Assembly (NCBI RefSeq): GCF_004137795.1
Contig: NZ_NWTM01000002.1
Span: forward strand, 186,001 to 250,000
DNA length: 64,000 nt
Reading direction: 5' to 3'
Source: Pectobacterium zantedeschiae
GTDB lineage: Bacteria > Pseudomonadota > Gammaproteobacteria > Enterobacterales > Enterobacteriaceae
The notes below the pieces were generated by a model. It ran no database searches and was not told the DNA's origin. It saw nothing but the letters and a program-made list of their open reading frames with translations. The position numbers and the translations under genes were made by a program. Position 1 is the first letter of the stretch, and every line of letters starts with the position of its first letter. Positions 4,807 through 20,530 of this stretch are shown in pieces.

Positions 4807-5508
4807 CTACTGTCCGTAATAGGCGTCTTTCCCATGCTTACGCAGGTAGTGCTTATCCAGCAGAACTTGCTGCATAGTGGTAATACCTGGCGTTAACTGG
4901 CGTGAAAAAATTCCCATATAGGCTATCTCTTCCAACACCACCGCATTATGCACTGCATTGTGTGCGTCTTTGCCCCAGGCGAATGGGCCGTGTGCATTGA
5001 CCAACACGGCAGGGATGTCTGTCGGGCTGATACCGCGCTTGCGGAACGTTTCTATAATAACGTTGCCTGTTTCCTGCTCATAGTGCTGCGCAATTTCGTC
5101 CTGTGTCATCAATCGCGTGCAGGGGATGGTTCCGTAGAAATAGTCTGCATGCGTGGTGCCCCAGGCGGGGAGATCCAGCCCCGCCTGGGCCCAGATGGTT
5201 GCGTGGCGCGAGTGCGTATGGACGATACCGCCTATTTCGGTAAAAGCACGGTATAACGCCAGATGCGTCGCCGTATCTGAAGAGGGTTTTTTGTTACCTT
5301 CGAGGATCTGTCCAGAGGCAAGATCGACCACGACCATATCCTCTACGCCCATATGTTCGTACTCCACGCCTGATGGTTTGATGACCACCAGACCGCGGTC
5401 GCGATCTACGACGCTGACGTTACCCCAGGTGAAAGTCACCAGGTGGTGACGCGGTAAATCCAGATTCGCTTCCAGAACCTGTTGCTTAAGTTGTTGTAAC
5501 GTTAGCAT
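4807..5508 (-). CDS. sgbE: L-ribulose-5-phosphate 4-epimerase
   Basis: It converts L-ribulose-5-phosphate to D-xylulose-5-phosphate, the last step that feeds this pathway into the pentose-phosphate cycle. It has 233 residues of the class II aldolase/adducin family. Motifs are WGNVS at 28-32, KPSSDT at 74-79, and the zinc ligands His97, His99 (HTHSRHAT) and His173 (NAHGPFAWG); the C terminus is DAYYGQ. AraD, UlaF and SgbE are paralogues with the same reaction. The surrounding yia genes decide for SgbE. Its start overlaps the sgbU stop by 7 nt, indicating translational coupling. It ends the operon. Confidence 0.9.
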
Positions 5509-6362
5509 GGCATTCCCCCTTGTTGCATTTTTTGCTCGATCCAGCGGCGCGCCTGAACGATCTCAGCGACCGGTTCATCAGCCTTCTCCGTCCACATTTC
5601 AATCAGGAAAGCGCCACGATAGTTGAGTGCTTTCAACGTGCTAAAAACGGAAACAAAATCCACACAGCCCTCGCCGAATGGTACGTCGCGGAACTGTCCG
5701 GGTGAGGTTGCAGTAACCGCTAAGGTGTCTTTCAGATGGATAGCGGCGATGCGATCGATACCCAGTTGCAATTCTTGCGTGACATTGTTGCCCCAGGCAC
5801 TGAGGTTGCCGACGTCTGGGTAGACGGTAAACCACGGTGAAGCCAGGCAGGTATCCCAGGCTTTCCACTTACTGATAGAGTTCATAAAAGCGGTGTCCAT
5901 GATCTCCACGGACAGCATCACCTGTGCGGCGGCGGCGCGTTCCACCGCCCATTGCATACCTTCGGTAAAGCGTGCAAGCGTGCCTTCATCCTGCTGCTCG
6001 TAATAGACGTCATATCCAGCTAACTGAATGGTGCGGATACCCACGTCTTTGGCTAGCTGAATGGCCTGCTCCATGATCGTAAAGGCACGTTGACGCAGTG
6101 CATCATCATGGCTGCCGAACGGAAAACGCCGATGCCCGGATAAGCACATCGAAGGGATACGAATGCCGGTTTCCAGCATCGCGTTAACCAGCGAAAGCCG
6201 CTGTTCCTTACTCCATAACAGGCGTGCCAGACGTTCATCGCTTTCGTCTATCGACATTTCAACAAAGTCAAAACCACAGGCTTTTGCTAGCGCTAAGCGC
6301 TCTGGCCAGGTCAGGTGTTTCGGCAGAGCTTTTTCATAAATACCTAATGGGTGTTGGCGCAT
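5502..6362 (-). CDS. sgbU: L-xylulose-5-phosphate 3-epimerase
   Basis: It converts L-xylulose-5-phosphate to L-ribulose-5-phosphate. It is a TIM-barrel sugar epimerase of 286 residues. Putative metal ligands by family comparison are Glu153 (SVEIMD), Asp183 (YPDVGN), His209 (IHLKD) and Glu255 (IEMW). The ATG at 6362 is preferred because GGAGG (6374-6370) stands seven bases before it and the product then starts [13 protein letters not shown], as in SgbU/UlaE. A longer frame from 6386 would overlap sgbH. Wording around residues 160-190 and the C terminus resembles E. coli SgbU more than UlaE. Confidence 0.9.
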
Positions 6363-6363
6363 A

Positions 6364-7020
6364 TTAAGGCCTCCAGATGGCGTCAACGGCGGCGCGAAAT
6401 TGGCGAGCCGAGTTTACTGGGTCAGGTGCATCCGCCAGCGCTCGTCCGGCAATGAATGCCGTGACGGCGATATCGCTGAATAGCGGTAGATCTGAGGGGG
6501 TAATTCCTCCGGTAATAGAGAGCTCGATGCCGAGGTCAGAAAGGGCTTTCATCGTGTCCAGATCCTGCTTGCCCCAGGTTTGGCCACTGGCCTGCGCATC
6601 GCGGCCACGGTGGTAAATCGCTTGTTTGATGCCCAGTGCGCGCCACGCTTTGGCATCTTCCAGCGTCCAGCGACCGAATAGCTCAATCTGGATCTCTCCC
6701 CGATGACGATCTGCCACTTCCAGTGCGCTGGCCATCGTGGGCAACGGCGCGGCGCAGATCACGGTCATCCAGTTTGCGCCGTGGGAAAAGGCTTGCTCTG
6801 CCAGCGTGGCGCCCGCGTCAGCGACTTTCAGATCGGCTACCAGCACATGGTGAGGGCAGCGCTCACGCAATTGGCTGACGCTCTGGATACCTGCGCTGAT
6901 ACACAAAATGGTGCCCGCTTCGATGATGTCGACGTAGGGGTGGAGCAGTTCCACAGTGGTGAGTGCGGCATCCAGTCGGGTGTGGTCGAGCGCCAGTTGC
7001 AGGCGGGGTTGCGTTGTCAT
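6364..7020 (-). CDS. sgbH: 3-keto-L-gulonate-6-phosphate decarboxylase
   Basis: It decarboxylates 3-keto-L-gulonate-6-phosphate to L-xylulose-5-phosphate. It belongs to the orotidine-5'-phosphate decarboxylase suprafamily; 218 residues. Active-site positions are visible: Asp12 (LALDH), Glu34 (EAGT), and Asp63, Lys65, Asp68 in DLKVADAG. The [12 protein letters not shown] and ITGGI segments near the C terminus are family signatures. Its ATG overlaps the lyxK stop (ATGA), and sgbU starts 1 nt after it, so lyxK-sgbH-sgbU are translationally linked. The name UlaD is the alternative for this family. Confidence 0.92.
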
Positions 7021-8525
7021 GGTTTCTCCTTACCGGCGGGTTGCAGCGCTTTTAACGCGTCGACGAGCGCCTGATAGTGTTGGTATTTTTTGTCGTAGGC
7101 CGTGCGAGCGTGTTCATCTGGGGTAAGGCGGGTAATCCGTGGTGAGAGTGCTCGCTGAGCGGCGGTGACATCGCTAAAAGCACCGCTGCCGACCATCGCC
7201 GCCATCGCTGCACCCAGACAGCCGGTTTCTTCTACCTGTGGAAGTTCGACAGGCAGGCCGCTGACGTCCGCAAACATCTGCATCCAGGGAACCGACTTGG
7301 CAGGGCCGCCGGTGATGCGCAACGCGTCCACGTGAGGGAAACGCTGACGCATACGATTCAGGTGCGCCATGTGGCTGAACACCACGCCTTCGTAAATGGC
7401 CTGAACAAGATGCTCGCGTCGGTGGAACGCTTGCAGGCCGTAGAAGTTGGCACTGAGCCCTAACCCGGCATTGGAACCATACAAGAACGGAACAAATAGC
7501 AGGGTGCTGGCTGCTTTAGGCAGATCCGAAACCCAGCAGTTGAGCTGGGCATAATCGACCCCTAAACCGTCACTCAGTCCCCATTGTTGGCAGAACCATT
7601 CAAGATTGGCAGCAGACGTCGGGCTGGCTTCATGCACGATGTAGCGTCCTGCTTCCGCATGGCGGCCATAAACGAAGGGATGGTCGTAGCCATCGGCGAG
7701 GGTGTCGGTGATGCCGCTGGTGACAGACCATGTTCCCATCACGGCATTGAGTCGAGTCTCGTCCTGAAGGCCTGCGCACAGGGCGGTGGAAACCACGTCG
7801 AATAGCCCACCGACGACGGGGGTTCCCGCCCGCAGCCCGGTTAGCTGTGCCGCTTCTGGAGTAATACGGCCTGCGATATCCGTAGAGCCGATGATCGGCG
7901 GTAAGGCGCTGATGATTTCCGCGATCCCGAGCTGTTCTGCTAGTGCTGGATCGTAGCGGCCTGTGTCCATGTTGTAGAGGTTGGATTCGGAGATATTGGT
8001 TTCTTCACAAGCCCGTTCTCCGGTCAGGCAGAAACGCAGGTAGTCGTGTGCCATGAAGAGCGTACCGATTTGCGCATAGCGTGTTGGCTGGTGGTCTTTG
8101 AGCCACCGCAGTAGCGAAACCGGATGACCTGTCCACAGCGTCTGACGGGTCTGAGGATAAAGCACTTGTGGTATTCCCGCCTGCTGCCATGCCAGAACCT
8201 GTTCACGCGCCCGCTGATCGGACGACAGCATCGCATTGCCTAGCGGCTGGTCATGCTTATCCAGCAGAAATAGCCCTTTGCCCTGCGCAGAGATCCCAAT
8301 GCCGGAAAGAGCGCTGGCGGGGATCGCCGTTTTGTCCAACAGTTCACGAATCACCTCAGCAGCGGTCTGCCACAGGCTGTGCATATCGCGCTCTGCCCAA
8401 CCGGGTTGCGGTGTGGTAATCGGCAGGTTGCGGCGTGCGATGCCGTACTCTGTTCCGGTGACGTCATAGATCCCGGCTTTGATAAAGGTGCCGCCGCAGT
8501 CGAGCCCCAGAAAATAGTCCGTCAT
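7017..8525 (-). CDS. lyxK: L-xylulose / 3-keto-L-gulonate kinase (FGGY family)
   Basis: A carbohydrate kinase of 502 residues (E. coli LyxK 498). The N-terminal phosphate loop GLDCGGTFIKAG is at about residues 7-18, and the catalytic base is Asp243 in GGLFDVV. Segments such as ISAQGKGLFLLDK, RQTLWTGHPVSLLRWLK and NISESNLYNM are close to E. coli LyxK. In this pathway it should phosphorylate 3-keto-L-gulonate, the product of YiaK, to the substrate of SgbH. Start and stop overlap both neighbours by 4 nt (ATGA). Confidence 0.92.
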   Translation of the reverse strand: MTDYFLGLDCGGTFIKAGIYDVTGTEYGIARRNLPITTPQPGWAERDMHSLWQTAAEVIRELLDKTAIPASALSGIGISAQGKGLFLLDKHDQPLGNAMLSSDQRAREQVLAWQQAGIPQVLYPQTRQTLWTGHPVSLLRWLKDHQPTRYAQIGTLFMAHDYLRFCLTGERACEETNISESNLYNMDTGRYDPALAEQLGIAEIISALPPIIGSTDIAGRITPEAAQLTGLRAGTPVVGGLFDVVSTALCAGLQDETRLNAVMGTWSVTSGITDTLADGYDHPFVYGRHAEAGRYIVHEASPTSAANLEWFCQQWGLSDGLGVDYAQLNCWVSDLPKAASTLLFVPFLYGSNAGLGLSANFYGLQAFHRREHLVQAIYEGVVFSHMAHLNRMRQRFPHVDALRITGGPAKSVPWMQMFADVSGLPVELPQVEETGCLGAAMAAMVGSGAFSDVTAAQRALSPRITRLTPDEHARTAYDKKYQHYQALVDALKALQPAGKEKP

Positions 8526-9823
8526 GCTGCCTCCGTGGACTCATCGCAACGCGGTGGCAGCATCATGGCCAGTACGGCGGCAATCGCCAGTGAGATAGCC
8601 AGGCTGTAGACGCCAACGTCTTTGTTAAAGGCTGAAATCAGCACGCCGACCATATAAGGGCCGCAGAAGCCACCGAGGTTGCCGAGCGCATTAATGACAC
8701 CGCGAGCGCCACCCGCGACTTCGGCATCAAACAACTTGGGAGGAATGGTCCAGAACACACCCGCGGCGGCCTGAATGAAGACGCCGCAGCCGACCAGCGC
8801 GGCATAGGACCACCAGATATGGCTTTTGAGCAAGACGGACAGTGCCATGCAAATGGCGAAACAGGCGAGTGGTAACGCGACGAAGACCTTACGTTTTCCT
8901 GAGTTATCGGACAGGTAGGAGATGGTGAACATGCCGACGATCGCCCCGATATAAGGCAAAATAGCCAGCATGCCGACCTGTTCCATGTTACCGTTGGTCA
9001 GCCCTTTCAGGATGGTGGGCAACCACAAGGTGTAACCGTAAATACCTGTCTGGTAAAAGAAATTCACCAAGATTAACTGCCACATCAACTTTTCGCGTAA
9101 TACCCGGCTTAGGGAGGCATTACGAACGGTTTTGCCTTGCAGTGCCGCTTGCTCTTCCTGCAACGTGTTGATCAGATACTCTTTTTCTGCCTGTGAAATC
9201 CATTTCGCTTCCTGTGGACGGTTACTGATGGTCAACCACCACAGCAGCATAACTGCCAGCGAGAACCCTCCCTCAACCAGAAACAGCATGCGCCAATCCC
9301 AGGTTGTGATGATCCAGCCAGAAAGCGGGGCGGTCAAAATTCCGGCGATGGGTACAAACATGATGACAATCGCGTTGGCGCGGCCACGTTCCTTATCTGG
9401 GAACCAGTTGCTGATCATCGTGAGTACCACTGGGAGCATACCGCCTTCAGATACCCCGAGCGCAAAGCGCAAAAACAGCAACTGATACTGATTGGTTACC
9501 AGACCGGTTAACACCGAAATGACGGCCCAGGCCAGCAGTGACCAGCCGATAAACTTTTTACCGTTGCCGTGCACGGCGAGTTTGCCGCCCGGCACTTGTA
9601 AAAACAGATAGCCGATAAAGAAGATCCCGCCTGCGAGTCCGGCCATTGATGCCGTAATACCCAGTTCGTCATCCATGCCGCCCGGCATCGCGAAGGCAAT
9701 ATTGACGCGATCCATATAGGAAATAATGCAGGTAATCAAAATGGGCGGTACGATCCGCAACCAGCGTAATCGAGGAATGTTTGCCGCTGTGCGCTGGCTA
9801 GAAGAAACCGTGGCTGTATTCAT
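8522..9823 (-). CDS. MFS permease of the anion:cation symporter family (YiaX2-like)
   Basis: A 433-residue inner-membrane transporter with about 12 hydrophobic segments in two halves. ISYMDRVNIAFAMPG near residue 35, RFALGVSEGGMLPVV near 120 and WFPDKERGRANA near 140 are marks of the ACS family (hexuronate/phthalate-type transporters). In E. coli this operon position holds the yiaMNO TRAP importer for 2,3-diketo-L-gulonate; in Klebsiella the yia operon carries the MFS gene yiaX2. By position it should import diketogulonate or a related sugar acid. It is 121 nt from yiaL and overlaps lyxK by 4 nt. Confidence 0.85.
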   Translation of the reverse strand: MNTATVSSSQRTAANIPRLRWLRIVPPILITCIISYMDRVNIAFAMPGGMDDELGITASMAGLAGGIFFIGYLFLQVPGGKLAVHGNGKKFIGWSLLAWAVISVLTGLVTNQYQLLFLRFALGVSEGGMLPVVLTMISNWFPDKERGRANAIVIMFVPIAGILTAPLSGWIITTWDWRMLFLVEGGFSLAVMLLWWLTISNRPQEAKWISQAEKEYLINTLQEEQAALQGKTVRNASLSRVLREKLMWQLILVNFFYQTGIYGYTLWLPTILKGLTNGNMEQVGMLAILPYIGAIVGMFTISYLSDNSGKRKVFVALPLACFAICMALSVLLKSHIWWSYAALVGCGVFIQAAAGVFWTIPPKLFDAEVAGGARGVINALGNLGGFCGPYMVGVLISAFNKDVGVYSLAISLAIAAVLAMMLPPRCDESTEAA

Positions 9824-9896
9824 ATCACTTTATCCTTCAACATGTTGCGTGCATGACGTGCTTCATTTTGGGCTTTTTCGCGCGTAGCAATCCCCG

Positions 9897-9916
9897 CACA
9901 TGCCCGCAGGCATGTG
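9897..9916. other. Perfect hairpin between yiaL and the MFS gene
   Basis: CACATGCC-CGCA-GGCATGTG is an 8-bp perfect stem in the only sizeable gap (121 nt) inside the yiaK-sgbE operon. No T tract follows on the minus strand. It may be an RNase-stabilising or processing element that sets the ratio of yiaKL to downstream mRNA. Confidence 0.5.
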
Positions 9917-9944
9917 TCGCGTTACATGGCAAAATCAGAAACGA

Positions 9945-11431
<1,487 letters not shown>

Positions 11432-11475: not shown

Positions 11476-11535
11476 ATTTCATTATGCGAAATTGCATTTC
11501 AAATAAATGCTATACCTGTGCTTGCATGAAGTCAA
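11476..11535 (-). promoter_or_regulatory. yiaK promoter with YiaJ/PlaR-type operator (module A)
   Basis: On the minus strand a -35 TTGACT (11535-11530) and -10 TAGCAT (11512-11507) are separated by 17 bp. Six bases further is the operator 11476-11500, read on the plus strand as ATTTC-N7-GAAAT-N3-ATTTC with central TATGCGAAATT. It would cover about +1 to +25 of the transcript, a classic repression position. Nearly the same element recurs at 16560-16584. GAAAT/ATTTC inverted halves fit operators of IclR-family regulators such as KdgR and YiaJ. Nothing else stands out between here and the terminator at 11645. Confidence 0.75.
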
Positions 11536-11644
11536 AACGAGGGAGGGTTAAATTTTATTTAAAAAACAAGTGGTTATTTTAATATGATGACTTTGTGATC
11601 GGTGCCGCATTTTGGGCGGTACACGGAATACAGACGTGAGAAAG

Positions 11645-11665
11645 CAGGGGGAGAGGCTCCCCCTG
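11645..11665 (-). terminator. Stem-loop terminator of operon B
   Basis: CAGGGGGAG-AGG-CTCCCCCTG is a perfect 9-bp GC-rich stem 24 nt past the lactonase stop on the minus strand, followed there by CTTTCTC. The tail is weak but the stem is very stable. It would separate the ABC/lactonase operon from the yiaK promoter. Confidence 0.65.
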
Positions 11666-11688
11666 TTAATTACCCCACACGCGCGGTT

Positions 11689-12534
11689 TTACCGGTACGA
11701 CTCTACCCCAATACGGTAAAGCGACGTCGTGGCCGTGATGTACAGTTCATTCCCTTCTGGCCCTCCGATAGTGCAGTTGGACACGCACTCCGGTACGTCT
11801 ATTTTGCCGATCTGATGGCCATCAGGGCTAAAAACCAGGACGCCGTCAGCGCAACTGCAAAATAGGTTGCCAGTACGATCAACACAGAAGCCATCGGGAA
11901 CGCCCGGCTCTACGTGGGCAAAAAACTGTCCCGCCCCCAGATGCTTTCCCTCAACCGGATAAATTCGCAGATCGCGGCGACCCAGCGTTGGGAAATCAAT
12001 AATCGACATGTCTGCAACATATAAATGTGTTTCATCTGGCGAAAATGCCAACCCGTTCGGGCGCTGGAGATCGCTGGCCGCGATGCTGAGTGAGCCATCG
12101 CGCGGATCGAAACAGTAGACATAGCAGCCAATGACCTGGCTTTCTGATTTGTAGCCTTCGTCATCGCTGGTAATGCCGTAGGGCGGATCGGTAAACCAGA
12201 TCGTGCCATCGCTACGGATCGCCACATCGTTTGGCGAGTTGAAGCGTTTCCCGTCAATGCGGTCGACCAGGACGTGAATATCACCATTATTCTCACGACG
12301 ACTGATACCACGCCGACCATGCTCGCAGCTCACGACGCGTCCTTGCGCATCAAGTGCATTGCCGTTTGCGTAGTGGGATGGAAAGCGCCAGAGAGTGACG
12401 TCGCCATTACGCGACCAGATAAACATCCGGTTTCCTTTTACATCGCTAAAGACCACAGCATCCTGCTGCGGCAACCATACTGGGCCTTCGGCCCAGATGG
12501 CGGGAGAACACAGACGCTCAAGTTGTTGTGTCAT
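11689..12534 (-). CDS. SMP-30/gluconolactonase family sugar lactonase
   Basis: A 281-residue six-bladed beta-propeller lactonase without signal peptide, so cytosolic. Metal-ligand positions of the SMP-30 family are present: Glu16 (AEGPVW), Asn102 (NSPNDV), Asn160 (RPNGLAF) and Asp214 (PDGFCVD). Family members hydrolyse aldonolactones with Ca or Zn. It is the last gene of the ABC importer operon, 14 nt after the binding-protein gene, so it probably opens a lactone brought in by that importer. Dehydroascorbate or an ascorbate-derived lactone is an attractive guess given the neighbouring diketogulonate pathway, but substrate cannot be read from sequence. Confidence 0.85.
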   Translation of the reverse strand: MTQQLERLCSPAIWAEGPVWLPQQDAVVFSDVKGNRMFIWSRNGDVTLWRFPSHYANGNALDAQGRVVSCEHGRRGISRRENNGDIHVLVDRIDGKRFNSPNDVAIRSDGTIWFTDPPYGITSDDEGYKSESQVIGCYVYCFDPRDGSLSIAASDLQRPNGLAFSPDETHLYVADMSIIDFPTLGRRDLRIYPVEGKHLGAGQFFAHVEPGVPDGFCVDRTGNLFCSCADGVLVFSPDGHQIGKIDVPECVSNCTIGGPEGNELYITATTSLYRIGVESYR

Positions 12535-12548
12535 GCGAGGCTCTCCAC

Positions 12549-13649
12549 TTATTTCACACCCCAGATTGCCCGGTAATGGCCTTGATAATCATTTTTTGGG
12601 TCATACAGGTTGTTATTACCGCCATCGTTCGCGACGTTTTCGGCTGTCACCAAATGCGCTGGGGTGACATAGCCAGAAGGCGGTTGCTTGGCAAAGGCGC
12701 GGTTAAACTCATCCAGTAACTGCCAGCCGTGCAGCTTCAGAGGCTCGGGCACGGTGGCGGATTGGCTATCGCCAGAGCGAATACGTTGATAGGCAGAGAT
12801 GGAACCATCGCCAGCCGAAATGTTGTACGGTGCATTTTTACCGCCTTTCTCGGCCGTTTTTAACGACGGAGCCATGAAATCAAAATACAGGTCGTTAATT
12901 GCCAGCGAATACTGGAAGCTGTCGCCATATTTCTGCAACAGACTAAACGTCATGGCAGGCATGCGGTTTGCGGTATCGGCGAGCGGTGTGTCGATGAATT
13001 CCACTACCTTGCAACCACTGCATTTACCGATTTCGTCTTTCATGACGTTGGCTTTATCAAGAGCGATTTGATAAAGGGAATCGGTAAAGATTAAGACATT
13101 GGCTTTTCCACCTGATTTTACGACGGCGTATTGCGCGGCGATGCGGGCAACATCATTCGAATCGGATGTCACGTTGTAGAAAATATCGTATTTAGGCAGG
13201 GGGCCTGGCTCGGGTACGGCATGCCATGCCGTCAGAATAATGCCTTGTTGAATGGCTTTCTTCAGCGGGATTTTGGCGACATTCGGGTTCCAACCACCAA
13301 TAACAATACCATCTGGCTTCTGAGCGATCGCCTGATTGAGCGAGGCCAACTGATCTTTGACCGAGCCGCCGCCGTCCAGCGTTTCCAGCTTCCAGCCTGC
13401 GGCTTTGGCTGCCTCACTCAACCCTTGCTGCACGCCTTGAACGCCGCCATTTTTCATATCGGAAGCAATAAAAATAATCTTCTTATTCGGCTGTAACTGC
13501 GGCCCCTGAGTCGGGCCGTCCCACTGCGTGCTGCTGGCGGTCGCTTTTGCAACGGCTGCCGTTGCCTGATCGAGATAGCTGTCAGCCCATGTTGGCTGGC
13601 TGCTTAATAACACGGTGGTCAGTCCTGATAACAGCAAAAAACGTTTCAT
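12549..13649 (-). CDS. Periplasmic sugar-binding protein of an ABC importer
   Basis: A 366-residue protein with a Sec signal peptide (MKRFLLLSGLTTVLLSSQP, likely cleavage after WA at about residue 22). The rest fits a type I periplasmic binding protein of the ribose/galactose group: KKIIFIASDMKNGG opens the first lobe, and DGIVIGGWNP near residue 113 is the sugar-binding loop after strand four. Trp and Asp residues around the cleft suggest a sugar or sugar-acid ligand. It is third in the operon, after ATPase and permease genes, an unusual place for a protein normally needed in excess. Confidence 0.88.
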   Translation of the reverse strand: MKRFLLLSGLTTVLLSSQPTWADSYLDQATAAVAKATASSTQWDGPTQGPQLQPNKKIIFIASDMKNGGVQGVQQGLSEAAKAAGWKLETLDGGGSVKDQLASLNQAIAQKPDGIVIGGWNPNVAKIPLKKAIQQGIILTAWHAVPEPGPLPKYDIFYNVTSDSNDVARIAAQYAVVKSGGKANVLIFTDSLYQIALDKANVMKDEIGKCSGCKVVEFIDTPLADTANRMPAMTFSLLQKYGDSFQYSLAINDLYFDFMAPSLKTAEKGGKNAPYNISAGDGSISAYQRIRSGDSQSATVPEPLKLHGWQLLDEFNRAFAKQPPSGYVTPAHLVTAENVANDGGNNNLYDPKNDYQGHYRAIWGVK

Positions 13650-13663
13650 AGGGTGTGCTCCTG

Positions 13664-14794
13664 TTAGGGATGTGTCACGTTATGGTTATTGTTTTCTGGT
13701 GGCGTGTTTTTCTGGTGAGAAGACTCCTGGTGGTGGCGCTGGGGTGTGTCTGCCTGACGGCGTTGTACGGCTTTTTGATTCAGTAAACGGCGGCGCTGGG
13801 CATAGCCTGCCAACGTGATGGAGAGCAGCAGCGTGGCTCCGTTAAATAACGGTTCAACCCAGAATTCGCCGCCAAATTGCTGGATACCAGCGATGCCAAT
13901 CGCAAGAATGGCGATACCGATAACCGTTCCCCAGACGTTCACTCGGCCGGGGCGAAGCGTGGTACTACCAAGGAATGCACCCACCAGCGCAGGTAAGAGA
14001 TAATCCATACCGACGCTTGCCTGTCCGACCCCTTGTTCTGCGGCGATCAACACGCCGCTAAAGCCAGTCAATACGCTGGAGGTGATGAAGGCACCGATAG
14101 TAAAACGATTAACGGAAATCCCATTGAGCCGTGCTGCGGCCGGATTGCCCCCAACGGCATACATGCAGCGGCCGAGCGGCGTATGTTCAGTGACGAGCCA
14201 TAAGACAATGGCGACAAGCAGGACATAGAAGGCCACGATAGGGATTCCGCCGATCTCAGTATGATGCAGAGCAATGAATGCATCAGGTAGATCGCCGACG
14301 ATTTGGCGGCCGCCTGAATGCCACAGGGCTACGGCGTACAGTACGGTGCCGGAGCCCAGCGTGGCGACGAAGCTATCGATATCGGCCAATGCCACCAGAA
14401 TGCCGTTGAGCAAGCCATATAGCGCTGAAATGACCAGTACCGTCAGCACCGCCATCTGCCATGAGAAGCCGTATTCCACCTGAAGCGTAATCGCCAGAAT
14501 GTGCCAGAGCACGATGCCGAAACCGACGTTGAGATCGATTTTTCCGACGATCATAGGAATCGTTGCGGCCAGTGCCAGCAGGGCGATTTTGGCTTTGCTG
14601 GAGAGGATTGCCTGTAGCGTCAACATGGACGCGAATGACGGTGTCGCGAGTGAAAAGAGAATAACCAGCGCGATGCACAGTAGCAGCAGGCCATAGCGGG
14701 TCAGAATTTGCATCAGCCAGGGACCAGCCCCATCCTGTGCCAGACTCACTCGTTGCTCTAGCGCCGTTGATTTTACTGATGTTTTATTAGACAT
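13664..14794 (-). CDS. ABC transporter permease, RbsC/BPD2 type
   Basis: A 376-residue inner-membrane permease with eight to ten hydrophobic segments over residues 30-335. The conserved cytoplasmic loop GRCMYAVGGNPAAARLNGI near residue 208 couples to the ATPase and is characteristic of ribose/xylose permeases. Residues about 338-376 form an extra polar tail rich in Gln, His, Arg and Asn that RbsC-type permeases (about 320-330 residues) lack. AAGGAAG precedes the ATG. The stop is 14 nt from the binding-protein gene. Confidence 0.9.
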   Translation of the reverse strand: MSNKTSVKSTALEQRVSLAQDGAGPWLMQILTRYGLLLLCIALVILFSLATPSFASMLTLQAILSSKAKIALLALAATIPMIVGKIDLNVGFGIVLWHILAITLQVEYGFSWQMAVLTVLVISALYGLLNGILVALADIDSFVATLGSGTVLYAVALWHSGGRQIVGDLPDAFIALHHTEIGGIPIVAFYVLLVAIVLWLVTEHTPLGRCMYAVGGNPAAARLNGISVNRFTIGAFITSSVLTGFSGVLIAAEQGVGQASVGMDYLLPALVGAFLGSTTLRPGRVNVWGTVIGIAILAIGIAGIQQFGGEFWVEPLFNGATLLLSITLAGYAQRRRLLNQKAVQRRQADTPQRHHQESSHQKNTPPENNNHNVTHP

Positions 14795-14881
14795 TATTTT
14801 CTTCCTTCGAACAGGTGAGGCTGTGTGAGCGTCTGAATTTTTTTACTGTTGATTCAGTTCGCCTGTGCAATAACGTGCCAT

Positions 14882-16411
14882 TCAGGCCGAAGCCGTGGTT
14901 TCTCCCGTGCTGGCAGATGCCAGTTCCAATAAGTTGGCGAAAGAGACCTGTTGATTTTTGAGTTCGCCGACGACATTGCCCCGATTGAAAACCAGTGCGC
15001 GATTGCAAATGTGGGCGATTTCCTCGAAATCATTGGAGATCACCAGTACCGCAACACCCTCCGCCAGTGACTTATTCAATAGATGGTAAATTTCGGCACG
15101 TGCACCGACATCAACGCCTGCGGTGGGATCTTCCAGGATCAGCAGTGGTGCGCCAAGGTGCATCCAGCGTGCCATCACCACTTTCTGTTGGTTGCCGCCG
15201 GACAACGCACTGATGTCGATATTGACGTTTTTGGGGCGCACATCGAACAGTTGTACTTTCCACCAGCTTGCCCCTATCTCTTCGCGGCGGCTGTAGCGGG
15301 AAAAGAGCTTATGTCCGCTGGCGCAGGGGTTGATAAATAGGTTCTCGCGTACGCTCATCGACATCACCAGACTTTCATTGGTGCGATCGCCTGCGACCAG
15401 CGATACGCCGTGAGCCATCGCCTGTTGCGGTGAACTGGCGTGGTAAGGTGCATCACGAAACTGAATTTCTCCGCTGTCGCATTGGCGTAGCCCGAACAGT
15501 AAACGGCCTATCTCTTCCTGACCTGCGCCACGCAGACCAGCCAGTGCGAGCATTTCCCCCGGTTGCAGGTTAAAGCTGACCGGGCCGATATCGCCTACCG
15601 TGACGTTTTTTACCTGTAGAACGGGAGAGGAAGGTGCAGGTAAGGGTTCACGCTGATCGCCGGGCATGGCTTCACCCACAATCAATTGCACCAGATCGCG
15701 CAGCGAATAATCCGCCGTTTTACCGCCTGCGACATAGCGGCCATCGCGCATGACACAGACGCGATCGGCGATGTCGATCACTTCATCCAGTCGGTGAGTG
15801 ACGTAAATCATGCCCACTTTTTTCGCACGAAGTCGGTTAATAACGGAAAAAAGATGGCGGACATCATTTGCCGGAAGCGAGGCGGTGGGTTCATCCAGCA
15901 CCAGCAGCTCGGCATTCACAGCGACGGCTCGCGCGATGGCGAGTAGTGATTTTTCCGTGCGCGAGAGTTCGAACACACGGGCATCGGGATCGAGTGCGAT
16001 CCCGACATCTTGTAGCGCCTGGCTGGCACGCTGGCGGATCGCCCGCCAGTCAATTAATCCAAAACGGCGTGGAAACCCCATGACCAGTGCCATGTTTTCC
16101 GCCACGGTCATCCACTCGATCAGCCCCAGATCCTGATGAATAAACGCAATAGGCTGGAGGCCATCACTTTTTATCGCTGCGGCTGACGTTATGCTGGTTC
16201 CACGGAATTGAATGTCGCCGCTATCGCGGGGGTAGACGCCTGCGAGGACTTTAATGAGTGTCGATTTCCCCGCGCCATTTTCGCCCAGCAGTGCGAGTAC
16301 CTCGCCCGGCATAACCTGAAGACTGACATCATTAACTGCAATGTTGCCGCCAAAGCGTTTAGTGATATGGCTAAGTGCAAGTATGGGTTGATCCGCATTG
16401 ATTTGATTCAT
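14882..16411 (-). CDS. Sugar ABC transporter ATPase with two nucleotide-binding domains (RbsA/XylG type)
   Basis: A 509-residue duplicated ATPase. Domain 1 has Walker A GENGAGKST at residues 43-51, signature LSRTEKSLLAIARA and Walker B LLVLDEPTASLP. Domain 2 has the degenerate Walker A GLRGAGQEEIGR and an intact signature LSGGNQQKV, the usual asymmetric pattern of carbohydrate uptake transporter 2 ATPases. The ATG at 16411 is preferred over a GTG at 16435 because AAGGG stands before it. It is first in operon B, transcribed from module B; an 87-nt gap separates it from the permease gene. Confidence 0.9.
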   Translation of the reverse strand: MNQINADQPILALSHITKRFGGNIAVNDVSLQVMPGEVLALLGENGAGKSTLIKVLAGVYPRDSGDIQFRGTSITSAAAIKSDGLQPIAFIHQDLGLIEWMTVAENMALVMGFPRRFGLIDWRAIRQRASQALQDVGIALDPDARVFELSRTEKSLLAIARAVAVNAELLVLDEPTASLPANDVRHLFSVINRLRAKKVGMIYVTHRLDEVIDIADRVCVMRDGRYVAGGKTADYSLRDLVQLIVGEAMPGDQREPLPAPSSPVLQVKNVTVGDIGPVSFNLQPGEMLALAGLRGAGQEEIGRLLFGLRQCDSGEIQFRDAPYHASSPQQAMAHGVSLVAGDRTNESLVMSMSVRENLFINPCASGHKLFSRYSRREEIGASWWKVQLFDVRPKNVNIDISALSGGNQQKVVMARWMHLGAPLLILEDPTAGVDVGARAEIYHLLNKSLAEGVAVLVISNDFEEIAHICNRALVFNRGNVVGELKNQQVSFANLLELASASTGETTASA

Positions 16412-16559
16412 GTGATGCGCCCTTGTGTTCAGCACACGCTGCGATGCGGTGCAAAATCGGTAAGCAACCTGTTCCCGTTGATTCAGGGCGGTATAACCCC
16501 CTGAATGTGGTATGGCAGGAACGAAATCAGCAACAAATTGTCGTTTTAATAAACCATAT

Positions 16560-16618
16560 ATTTCAATATGCGAAATTCAATTTCAAAAACAATATACCGA
16601 AGATTACGCTAAAGCAAA
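16560..16618 (-). promoter_or_regulatory. Operon B promoter with YiaJ/PlaR-type operator (module B)
   Basis: On the minus strand -35 TTTGCT (16618-16613) and -10 TATATT (16596-16591) are 16 bp apart. The operator 16560-16584 starts six bases after the -10 box, exactly as at yiaK, with the same ATTTC-N7-GAAAT-N3-ATTTC geometry and the shared core TATGCGAAATT. It lies in the 466-bp gap between the ATPase gene and divergent yiaJ, so the regulator may also control itself. The rest of that gap (16619-16877) is AT-rich on its left side and shows no clear yiaJ promoter. Confidence 0.75.
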
Positions 16619-16877: not shown

Positions 16878-17696
16878 ATGAGCCCGAAAGCTGTTAATGA
16901 GAAAGACGATCAAAAAGAAAAACCGCTGGGGAGTCAGAGTCTATTTCGTGGTTTACAATTGATTGAAATTCTGAGTAATTTTCCTAACGGCTGTCCACTC
17001 GCCCATCTGTCTGAACTGGCGGGAATGAACAAAAGTACCGTACACCGATTGCTACAGGGGCTGCATACCAGTGGCTATGTCACGCAGGCACCTTCACCAG
17101 GCAGCTATCGTCTGACGACCAAATTTATCTCCATTGGGCAGAAGGCACTGTCTTCTCTGAATATTATTCACGTCGCTTCGCCTCATCTGGTGCAGTTGAA
17201 TCTGGAAGTGGGTGAAACGGTGAACTTTTCCAGCCGTGAAGACGATCACGTCATCCTGATCTACAAGTTGGAGCCGACGACGGGCATGATGCGCACCCGC
17301 GCTTACATCGGTCAGCATATGCCGCTTTATTGCTCCGCCATGGGCAAAATTTTTATGGCGTATGGTAACAGCGACTACCCTGCGTACTATTGGCAAACTC
17401 ATCAGAGTGATATTCAGCCCCTCACGCGGAATACCATCACAGAGCTGCCGAAGATGTATGAAGAGCTGGAAGATATTCGTCAGAAAGGATTGGCGATGGA
17501 TCGCGAGGAAAATGAGCTCGGCGTATCCTGCATTGCTGCACCGGTATTTGATATTCAGCAGCGCGTTCCTTATGCGGTATCGGTATCGCTGCCTACCGCC
17601 AAGCTACAGCAAATCGGTATGAAATCGCTGGTTAAGCCGGTTATCGCTACCGCCCAGCGTATTTCTCTGGAACTGGGATTTGTCACCCCCGATTGA
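16878..17696 (+). CDS. yiaJ: IclR-family transcriptional regulator YiaJ (PlaR)
   Basis: A 272-residue DNA-binding repressor. An N-terminal winged helix-turn-helix (residues about 22-80; SLFRGLQLIEIL, HLSELAGMNKSTVHRLLQGL) is followed by an IclR effector domain with ETVNFSSREDDHVILIYKLEPTTGMMRTRAYIGQ-type sequence near 116-150 and GVSCIAAPVFD near 222. Sequence follows E. coli YiaJ (renamed PlaR), repressor of the yiaK-S operon, almost throughout. The ATG at 16878 is preferred to a start at 16806: TGGAGA precedes it. Divergent from operon B, it most likely binds both module operators. Confidence 0.93.
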   Translation: MSPKAVNEKDDQKEKPLGSQSLFRGLQLIEILSNFPNGCPLAHLSELAGMNKSTVHRLLQGLHTSGYVTQAPSPGSYRLTTKFISIGQKALSSLNIIHVASPHLVQLNLEVGETVNFSSREDDHVILIYKLEPTTGMMRTRAYIGQHMPLYCSAMGKIFMAYGNSDYPAYYWQTHQSDIQPLTRNTITELPKMYEELEDIRQKGLAMDREENELGVSCIAAPVFDIQQRVPYAVSVSLPTAKLQQIGMKSLVKPVIATAQRISLELGFVTPD

Positions 17697-20342: not shown

Positions 20343-20530
20343 GAAAGTCAAAATCCCCTGAATGAGTCTGTTTTTTTTCACTATGCCACATTTTGCTGAT
20401 TTGCCATGCAGAAATCTTATTTCGACTGTCATGTGAAATCACGATTCAGCACTGTGCGAGTGAAATTGCGTGTGTGAAATAATGCATCGATGGTGAGGCG
20501 AATTGCACGCTTTCCTCAACGCGCATGTTC

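Follow-up and report, generated by a model that had tools for sequence, protein, structure and literature searches.

Two three-box sites before the yiaK and ABC/lactonase operons of Pectobacterium zantedeschiae are probable operators of the IclR-family regulator YiaJ

In Pectobacterium zantedeschiae the yiaK operon lies beside a second operon, for an ATP-binding cassette (ABC) sugar importer and a lactonase, and beside yiaJ, the gene of an IclR-family regulator. Within the stretch of 64,000 nucleotides (nt) that we analysed, referred to as the window (contig NZ_NWTM01000002.1, positions 186,001 to 250,000), each of the two operons is headed by a copy of the same 25-bp element, operator 1 before yiaK and operator 2 before the ABC/lactonase operon (Table 1). 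Is one regulator responsible for both, and if so, which one? Judging from the sequence, it is highly probable that both sites are operators of the adjacent YiaJ (PlaR). An earlier reading of the letters of this DNA (the original prediction) had proposed YiaJ as the probable common repressor, and YiaJ still appears to be the best fit to the adjacent orthologue, to the site at E. coli yiaK, and to sites that follow both operons through rearrangements.

The two operators match GAAAT-N3-ATTTC-N7-GAAAT on the minus strand without mismatch, are identical at 22 of 25 bases, and both contain TATGCGAAATT. The original prediction had given the same pattern as ATTTC-N7-GAAAT-N3-ATTTC with a common core, and had placed one site before yiaK and the other before the ABC/lactonase operon next to yiaJ; the matches are exact and the gene calls agree. 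It had also held that two such sites are improbable by chance. This is borne out by a first-order Markov estimate, which expects 0.022 perfect matches in the 5.06 Mb genome and 2.8e-4 in the window, against the two that are present in the genome, both at these operon heads. Looser matches are less telling. At up to two mismatches the whole genome has 24 matches to the pattern versus 13 to a reversed control pattern, and with three mismatches allowed the window has 5 versus 2.5 expected, a number equalled or exceeded in 12 of 100 shuffles. Because there is no clear excess in the window at three mismatches, the operator signal resides in the near-perfect matches. A refined pattern found only operators 1 and 2 in this genome at zero or one mismatch, and four more matches at two mismatches. 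The operator pair is real and well supported.

Since the pattern was derived from operators 1 and 2, the fair test is provided by other genomes, and the three-box pattern passed it. YiaJ was detected in 10 of 25 genomes of the genus (our own included), and the substrate-binding protein of the importer in the same 10; precisely these 10 genomes have exactly two sites within two mismatches of GAAATNNNATTTCGCATANTGAAAT, and no such site occurs in the other 15. This pattern reflects a cluster that is inherited together, not independent gain. At the level of the family, YiaJ was found in 12 of 119 genomes and the substrate-binding protein in seven, all within those 12. The patchy presence in the genus agrees with a report, as far as its accessible text goes, that YiaJ and RbsC are among the frequent genomic-island genes of P. 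aroidearum (PMC9326479).

A scan of related loci covered E. coli K-12 and 53 relatives with at least 56% identity (L052-L104, out of 61, the eight more distant loci L105-L112 being left out), 54 loci altogether, two of which (L090 and L091, from Dickeya) are without either operon. The starts of yiaK, of the ABC ATPase gene and of the lactonase gene gave 95 rows, and 89 of these had a match with at most three mismatches within 400 nt (no mismatch in 34, one in 29, two in 11 and three in 15); a split match in the lactonase row of L095 was dropped, which left 94 rows. The sites track transcription units, because a match preceded 89 of 89 genes whose nearest listed same-strand neighbour upstream was 200 nt or more away, or that had no such neighbour, and none of the five operon-internal genes (each separated by less than 120 nt from the gene before it) had a match better than four mismatches. 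These five are yiaK of L068 and the ATPase genes of L099, L101, L102, and L103. An earlier gap limit of 260 nt had wrongly classed eight yiaK genes with sites as internal.

The rearranged loci are instructive. A single site is present in Yersinia massiliensis (L068) and in several Pasteurellaceae (L099, L101-L103), whose genes form one continuous run. The ABC operon of Testudinibacter (L094, L096) stands on the opposite side of yiaJ and is preceded by a site all the same, and in Pantoea sp. 1.19 (L069), where the ABC genes were not found, the site precedes the lactonase gene. Among 85 upstream regions of yiaK and ATPase genes outside Pectobacterium (the five internal genes included), 65 match with at most two mismatches; 200 letter-shuffled patterns gave a mean of 0.15 on the same regions, the highest value being 9 and the next 2. 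The upstream regions of other genes (n=294, coding strand only) comprised 50 rows for yiaJ, which shares the intergenic region and had a best match of one mismatch, and one lactonase at one mismatch (as for L069); the best matches of the remaining 243 had at least four mismatches. The family search supplied 13 YiaJ loci, some of them being the same places as in the 54-locus scan. Within 1.5 kb, 10 of these loci have yiaK or the ABC operon, and all 10 have a site with at most two mismatches; the 3 without these operons have none. What is observed directly is that the sites exist, are conserved, and occur together with YiaJ and the operons. In the two Dickeya loci (yiaJ at 8001-8792 in L090 and 8001-8789 in L091), which have no yiaK or ABC operon and no site within two mismatches, yiaJ perhaps encodes an orphan repressor.

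YiaJ of the window is 74% identical to E. coli YiaJ and matches the solved E. coli YiaJ domain (1ysq_A) with an E value of 3.8e-89, the next IclR-family chain following at 3.9e-23; the recognition helices of the two proteins differ at a single residue. The window protein reached no NCBIfam equivalog cut-off. By its sequence, the adjacent regulator is an orthologue of E. coli YiaJ. E. coli K-12 has a single copy of the site (L042:1168), which lies 41 nt upstream of yiaK and deviates from the pattern at one position. An arrangement like the present one, in which the yiaK operon adjoins the gene of the orthologous repressor, is described in the accessible part of the work on E. coli PlaR (Shimada et al. 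2019, PMC6958661). According to this work, purified PlaR binds the yiaK promoter and PlaR represses it, deletion of plaR raises yiaK-lacZ expression, the PlaR-box overlaps the experimentally identified yiaK promoter, and PlaR binding is reduced by ascorbate and galacturonate. The first two boxes here equal the PlaR-box printed there, ATnTGAAACnnnGTTCAnTT, in spacing and in GAAA/TTC. However, the printed box, derived from 10 targets, consists of two half-sites, and the third box, N7-GAAAT, is conserved here and also at E. coli yiaK. The ABC importer and lactonase operon is a further difference, being absent from the E. coli locus.

Three boxes are not without precedent in this family. Sites with three boxes of alternating direction were predicted for 32 IclR-family orthologous groups, and alternative dimerisation was suggested for them (Suvorova and Gelfand 2021, PMC8222616). 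The main text of that paper mentions neither YiaJ nor PlaR, which may be listed in its supplements. Our operators are like this type in having three alternating boxes and, for the outer pair, the spacing of the WTTYC-RYW3RY-GRAAW subgroup (group 1, subgroup iii). Compared by eye, operator 1 fits this consensus fully and operator 2 has one spacer mismatch; the inner pair agrees with TGRAACA-N1-2-TGTTYCA (group 2) in TGRAA, TTYC, and spacing, and differs at the inner C/A and T/G positions and the last A. By sequence, the operators are three-box IclR-family sites of a published type. The original prediction named YiaJ soundly but missed both this type and the similar box of another IclR-family regulator, KdgR, which is considered below.

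All three boxes are kept in orthologous promoters. The 25 columns of the site have a mean information of 1.34 bits over 88 distinct rows, versus 0.49 upstream and 0.25 downstream, and the rows were selected by their match to the boxes, which inflates the values of the box columns. The seven spacer columns between boxes 2 and 3, which are free of the pattern, average 1.08 bits, and the three that separate box 1 from box 2 carry next to no information (0.01-0.11 bits). Box 3 is the best kept: its GAAAT is intact in 52 of 62 distinct sites, box 1 in 31 and box 2 in 36, absolute values that are again inflated by the choice of rows. Boxes 1+2 and 2+3 form two overlapping dyads offset by 10 bp, or one helical turn, and boxes 1 and 3 are direct repeats with an offset of 20 bp. 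This makes a dimer of dimers on one face of the DNA plausible. A fourth box was ruled out for Enterobacterales, where 78 rows have 0-3 of its 5 bases. All five bases are present only upstream of the ABC operon in Testudinibacter (L094, L096); upstream of yiaK, L098 and L100 have four of the five. The Testudinibacter ABC promoters (8956-8992 in L094 and the same place in L096) show the arrangement ATTTC-7-AAAAT-3-ATTTC-7-GAAAA; this four-box version may be the full tandem operator and the three-box form a shortened tandem site.

How would such a site act? Operator 1 lies upstream of yiaK and outside the gene, the start of yiaK being best placed at 11431 by its full-length NCBIfam equivalog match. 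The TTTGACT and the -10 region of the predicted yiaK promoter are kept in the Enterobacterales rows. A consensus promoter scan found none at operator 2; there, TTTGCTT and a TATTAT-like -10 are kept in relatives, and TATATT (16591-16596) is an alternative -10. The claim of the original prediction that each site starts six bases after a -10 box is right for operator 1 (TTGACT-N17-TAGCAT). For operator 2 it is true only with TATATT as the -10, since the conserved TTTGCTT at a spacing of 17 nt gives TATTGT, four bases before the site. It remains likely that both operators overlap the predicted transcription start, at about +1 to +25. The distance from operator 2 to the first aligned ATPase codon (window 16412-16559) is 147-149 nt in four Pectobacterium loci and 63-123 nt elsewhere. 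The lactonase gene is followed, ahead of the yiaK promoter, by a terminator-like hairpin, which fits two separate transcripts.

In the mechanism that we propose, the half-sites of the 25-bp site alternate in direction (GAAAT-3-ATTTC-7-GAAAT along the transcript), and the operator, just downstream of a sigma-70 -10 element, would cover the transcription start. At each of the two promoters, bound YiaJ would block RNA polymerase until released by a ligand derived from the breakdown of ascorbate; the importer and lactonase (operon 2) would then be switched on together with the yiaK catabolic operon (operon 1). The promoters, the binding and repression by YiaJ, the ligand, and the stoichiometry in this scheme are what we infer from the sequence.

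Table 1. Features of the YiaJ locus in the window (positions are those of the window).
Feature	Position	Strand	Basis or remark
Operator 1, three-box, GAAATGCAATTTCGCATAATGAAAT	11476..11500	-	upstream of yiaK; kept in relatives
Operator 2, three-box, GAAATTGAATTTCGCATATTGAAAT	16560..16584	-	upstream of ABC/lactonase operon; kept in relatives
Predicted sigma-70 promoter of yiaK, TTGACT-N17-TAGCAT	11507..11535	-	promoter scan; ends 6 bases before operator 1
Proposed ABC/lactonase promoter, TTGCTT-N17-TATTGT	16589..16617	-	read from sequence; ends 4 bases before operator 2
Terminator-like hairpin between lactonase gene and yiaK promoter	11648..11663	-	also reads on + strand
yiaK	10433..11431	-	NCBIfam 3-dehydro-L-gulonate 2-dehydrogenase, 625.5 bits, cut-off 316, profile 1-332 of 332
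Rest of yiaK operon: yiaL, major facilitator superfamily (MFS) transporter, lyxK-type kinase, ulaD/sgbH, ulaE/sgbU, ulaF/sgbE	4807..10418	-	family matches; E. coli counterparts and order
SMP-30/gluconolactonase-type lactonase	11689..12534	-	family match
Periplasmic substrate-binding protein, Peripla_BP_4	12549..13649	-	family match
ABC importer permease, BPD_transp_2	13664..14794	-	family match
ABC sugar-importer ATPase, two ABC_tran stretches	14882..16411	-	family match
yiaJ (plaR), IclR-family regulator	16878..17696	+	divergent from ABC/lactonase operon

Several points weigh against YiaJ as the common repressor and have to be set beside the evidence above. The loci of the scan are related by descent, so that its rows are not independent, and the gap limit of 200 nt was chosen after the rows had been seen. 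A degenerate form of the three-box pattern, applied to nine genomes, gave 77 matches at zero or one mismatch versus 22 for the reversed control, and most of the 77 lie away from these operons; perfect ones away from the yiaJ cluster occur in Pantoea (G182:C10:143201-143225, L128) and Pasteurella (G174:C1:1103049-1103073, L132). The expected local sites are among the matches in seven of the nine genomes, and no such sites are found in two Dickeya genomes. The regulon of E. coli PlaR, with 18 high-affinity targets in the accessible text, is also wider than what is seen here (PMC6958661). Further targets, or KdgR sites, are possible among the other degenerate-pattern matches.

Most of the remaining objections concern KdgR. 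If the sites were KdgR boxes, or dual KdgR/YiaJ sites, a pectin-derived KdgR ligand and not an ascorbate metabolite would control both operons, which we consider rather unlikely. KdgR is encoded in the same genome and has a similar box: it is an IclR-family protein with an A/T-rich palindrome and similar half-sites, the PlaR-box resembles the KdgR-box, and shared targets or co-regulation have been proposed in E. coli (PMC6958661). Near matches also occur in Dickeya before tandem genes that look like pectate lyases. On the other hand, a KdgR match over the cut-off was found in only nine of 14 genomes tested, and the five without it nevertheless keep the match before yiaK. These five, which we take to be Pasteurellaceae (of nine Pasteurellaceae tested), have YiaJ itself as their sole match to the KdgR profile, the coordinates agreeing. 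Their value is reduced in that their completeness is unstated, that their yiaK matches have 0, 3, 2, 3, and 3 mismatches (one perfect and four weak), and that one of them has a close relative (G169, L096) with KdgR; as evidence for YiaJ over KdgR we regard them as moderate. The KdgR consensus has, to our knowledge, no third box at N7, no KdgR matrix having been compared. The three-box form is otherwise rare in the P. zantedeschiae genome, the further one-mismatch matches lying only upstream of a presumably argP-like gene and inside a presumably glpQ-like gene. In the genus the pair of sites follows YiaJ, though the whole cluster comes and goes with YiaJ. Co-binding of KdgR at the Pectobacterium operators is possible. 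The Dickeya near matches were considered as a second regulon and rejected. They lie at 5143-5179 and 6658-6682 in L154, before the tandem genes, which we take from their appearance to be pectate lyases, and near 5100 and 6694 in L155, where they are alike by sequence; they are probably KdgR boxes.

It is very improbable that the element serves mainly in autoregulation of yiaJ or is a conserved part of a duplicated promoter, since, although operator 2 sits in the gap separating the divergent yiaJ from the ABC operon, and although the promoter-side flanks are also conserved in Enterobacterales when single promoter classes are taken (1.00 bits for yiaK and 0.87 for ATPase, versus 1.48 and 1.53 for the site), the site goes with the operons in the 13 YiaJ loci described above (10 of 10 against none of 3), is missing from the two Dickeya loci with yiaJ and neither operon, and is kept when the ABC operon stands on the other side of yiaJ.

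With YiaJ retained as the probable repressor of both operons, what is new is that an ABC/SMP-30-lactonase operon very probably joins its regulon, and that a third conserved box very probably extends the published PlaR-box. This is a modest and conventional extension of a known regulon. A search of open-licence literature on YiaJ with Pectobacterium or gluconolactonase and related terms found no description of the ABC/lactonase operon. Probable co-control with yiaK, the product of which is 2,3-diketo-L-gulonate reductase in the E. coli record, suggests as substrate of the importer and lactonase a lactone connected with the breakdown of ascorbate. We tentatively go one step further and consider it possible, if somewhat short of an even chance, that the two form a route, so far uncharacterised, by which oxidised vitamin C enters the cell as a lactone (dehydroascorbate, for instance), and in which the lactonase would open the lactone ring, yielding 2,3-diketo-L-gulonate for reduction by YiaK, under one YiaJ switch with a three-box operator allowing two dimer registers. 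The lactonase of L069, which keeps the operator without the ABC genes, would fit this proposal, as would L099 and L101-L103, whose yiaK operon has the ABC genes after yiaO. The neighbouring genes of L082, L088, and L089, which have the ABC operon and no yiaK, did not settle the substrate. A poorly annotated importer and lactonase of plant-associated bacteria would in this way be tied to the ascorbate/2,3-diketogulonate pathway, which offers a testable class of substrates, and a sharper three-box operator may help to tell true YiaJ targets from KdgR-like sites.

Two look-alikes in the P. zantedeschiae genome were set aside. The one-mismatch match on contig 6 (L004) falls inside a coding sequence, that of the presumably glpQ-like gene, and was rejected as a member of the regulon. 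The other, at 20399-20423 of the window, upstream of the gene that we take to be argP-like, is unlikely to be a YiaJ site; with at most two mismatches from the window letters it recurs in 25 of 25 genomes of the genus, 15 of which are without YiaJ. It is a conserved intergenic element, nearly invariant throughout these genomes.

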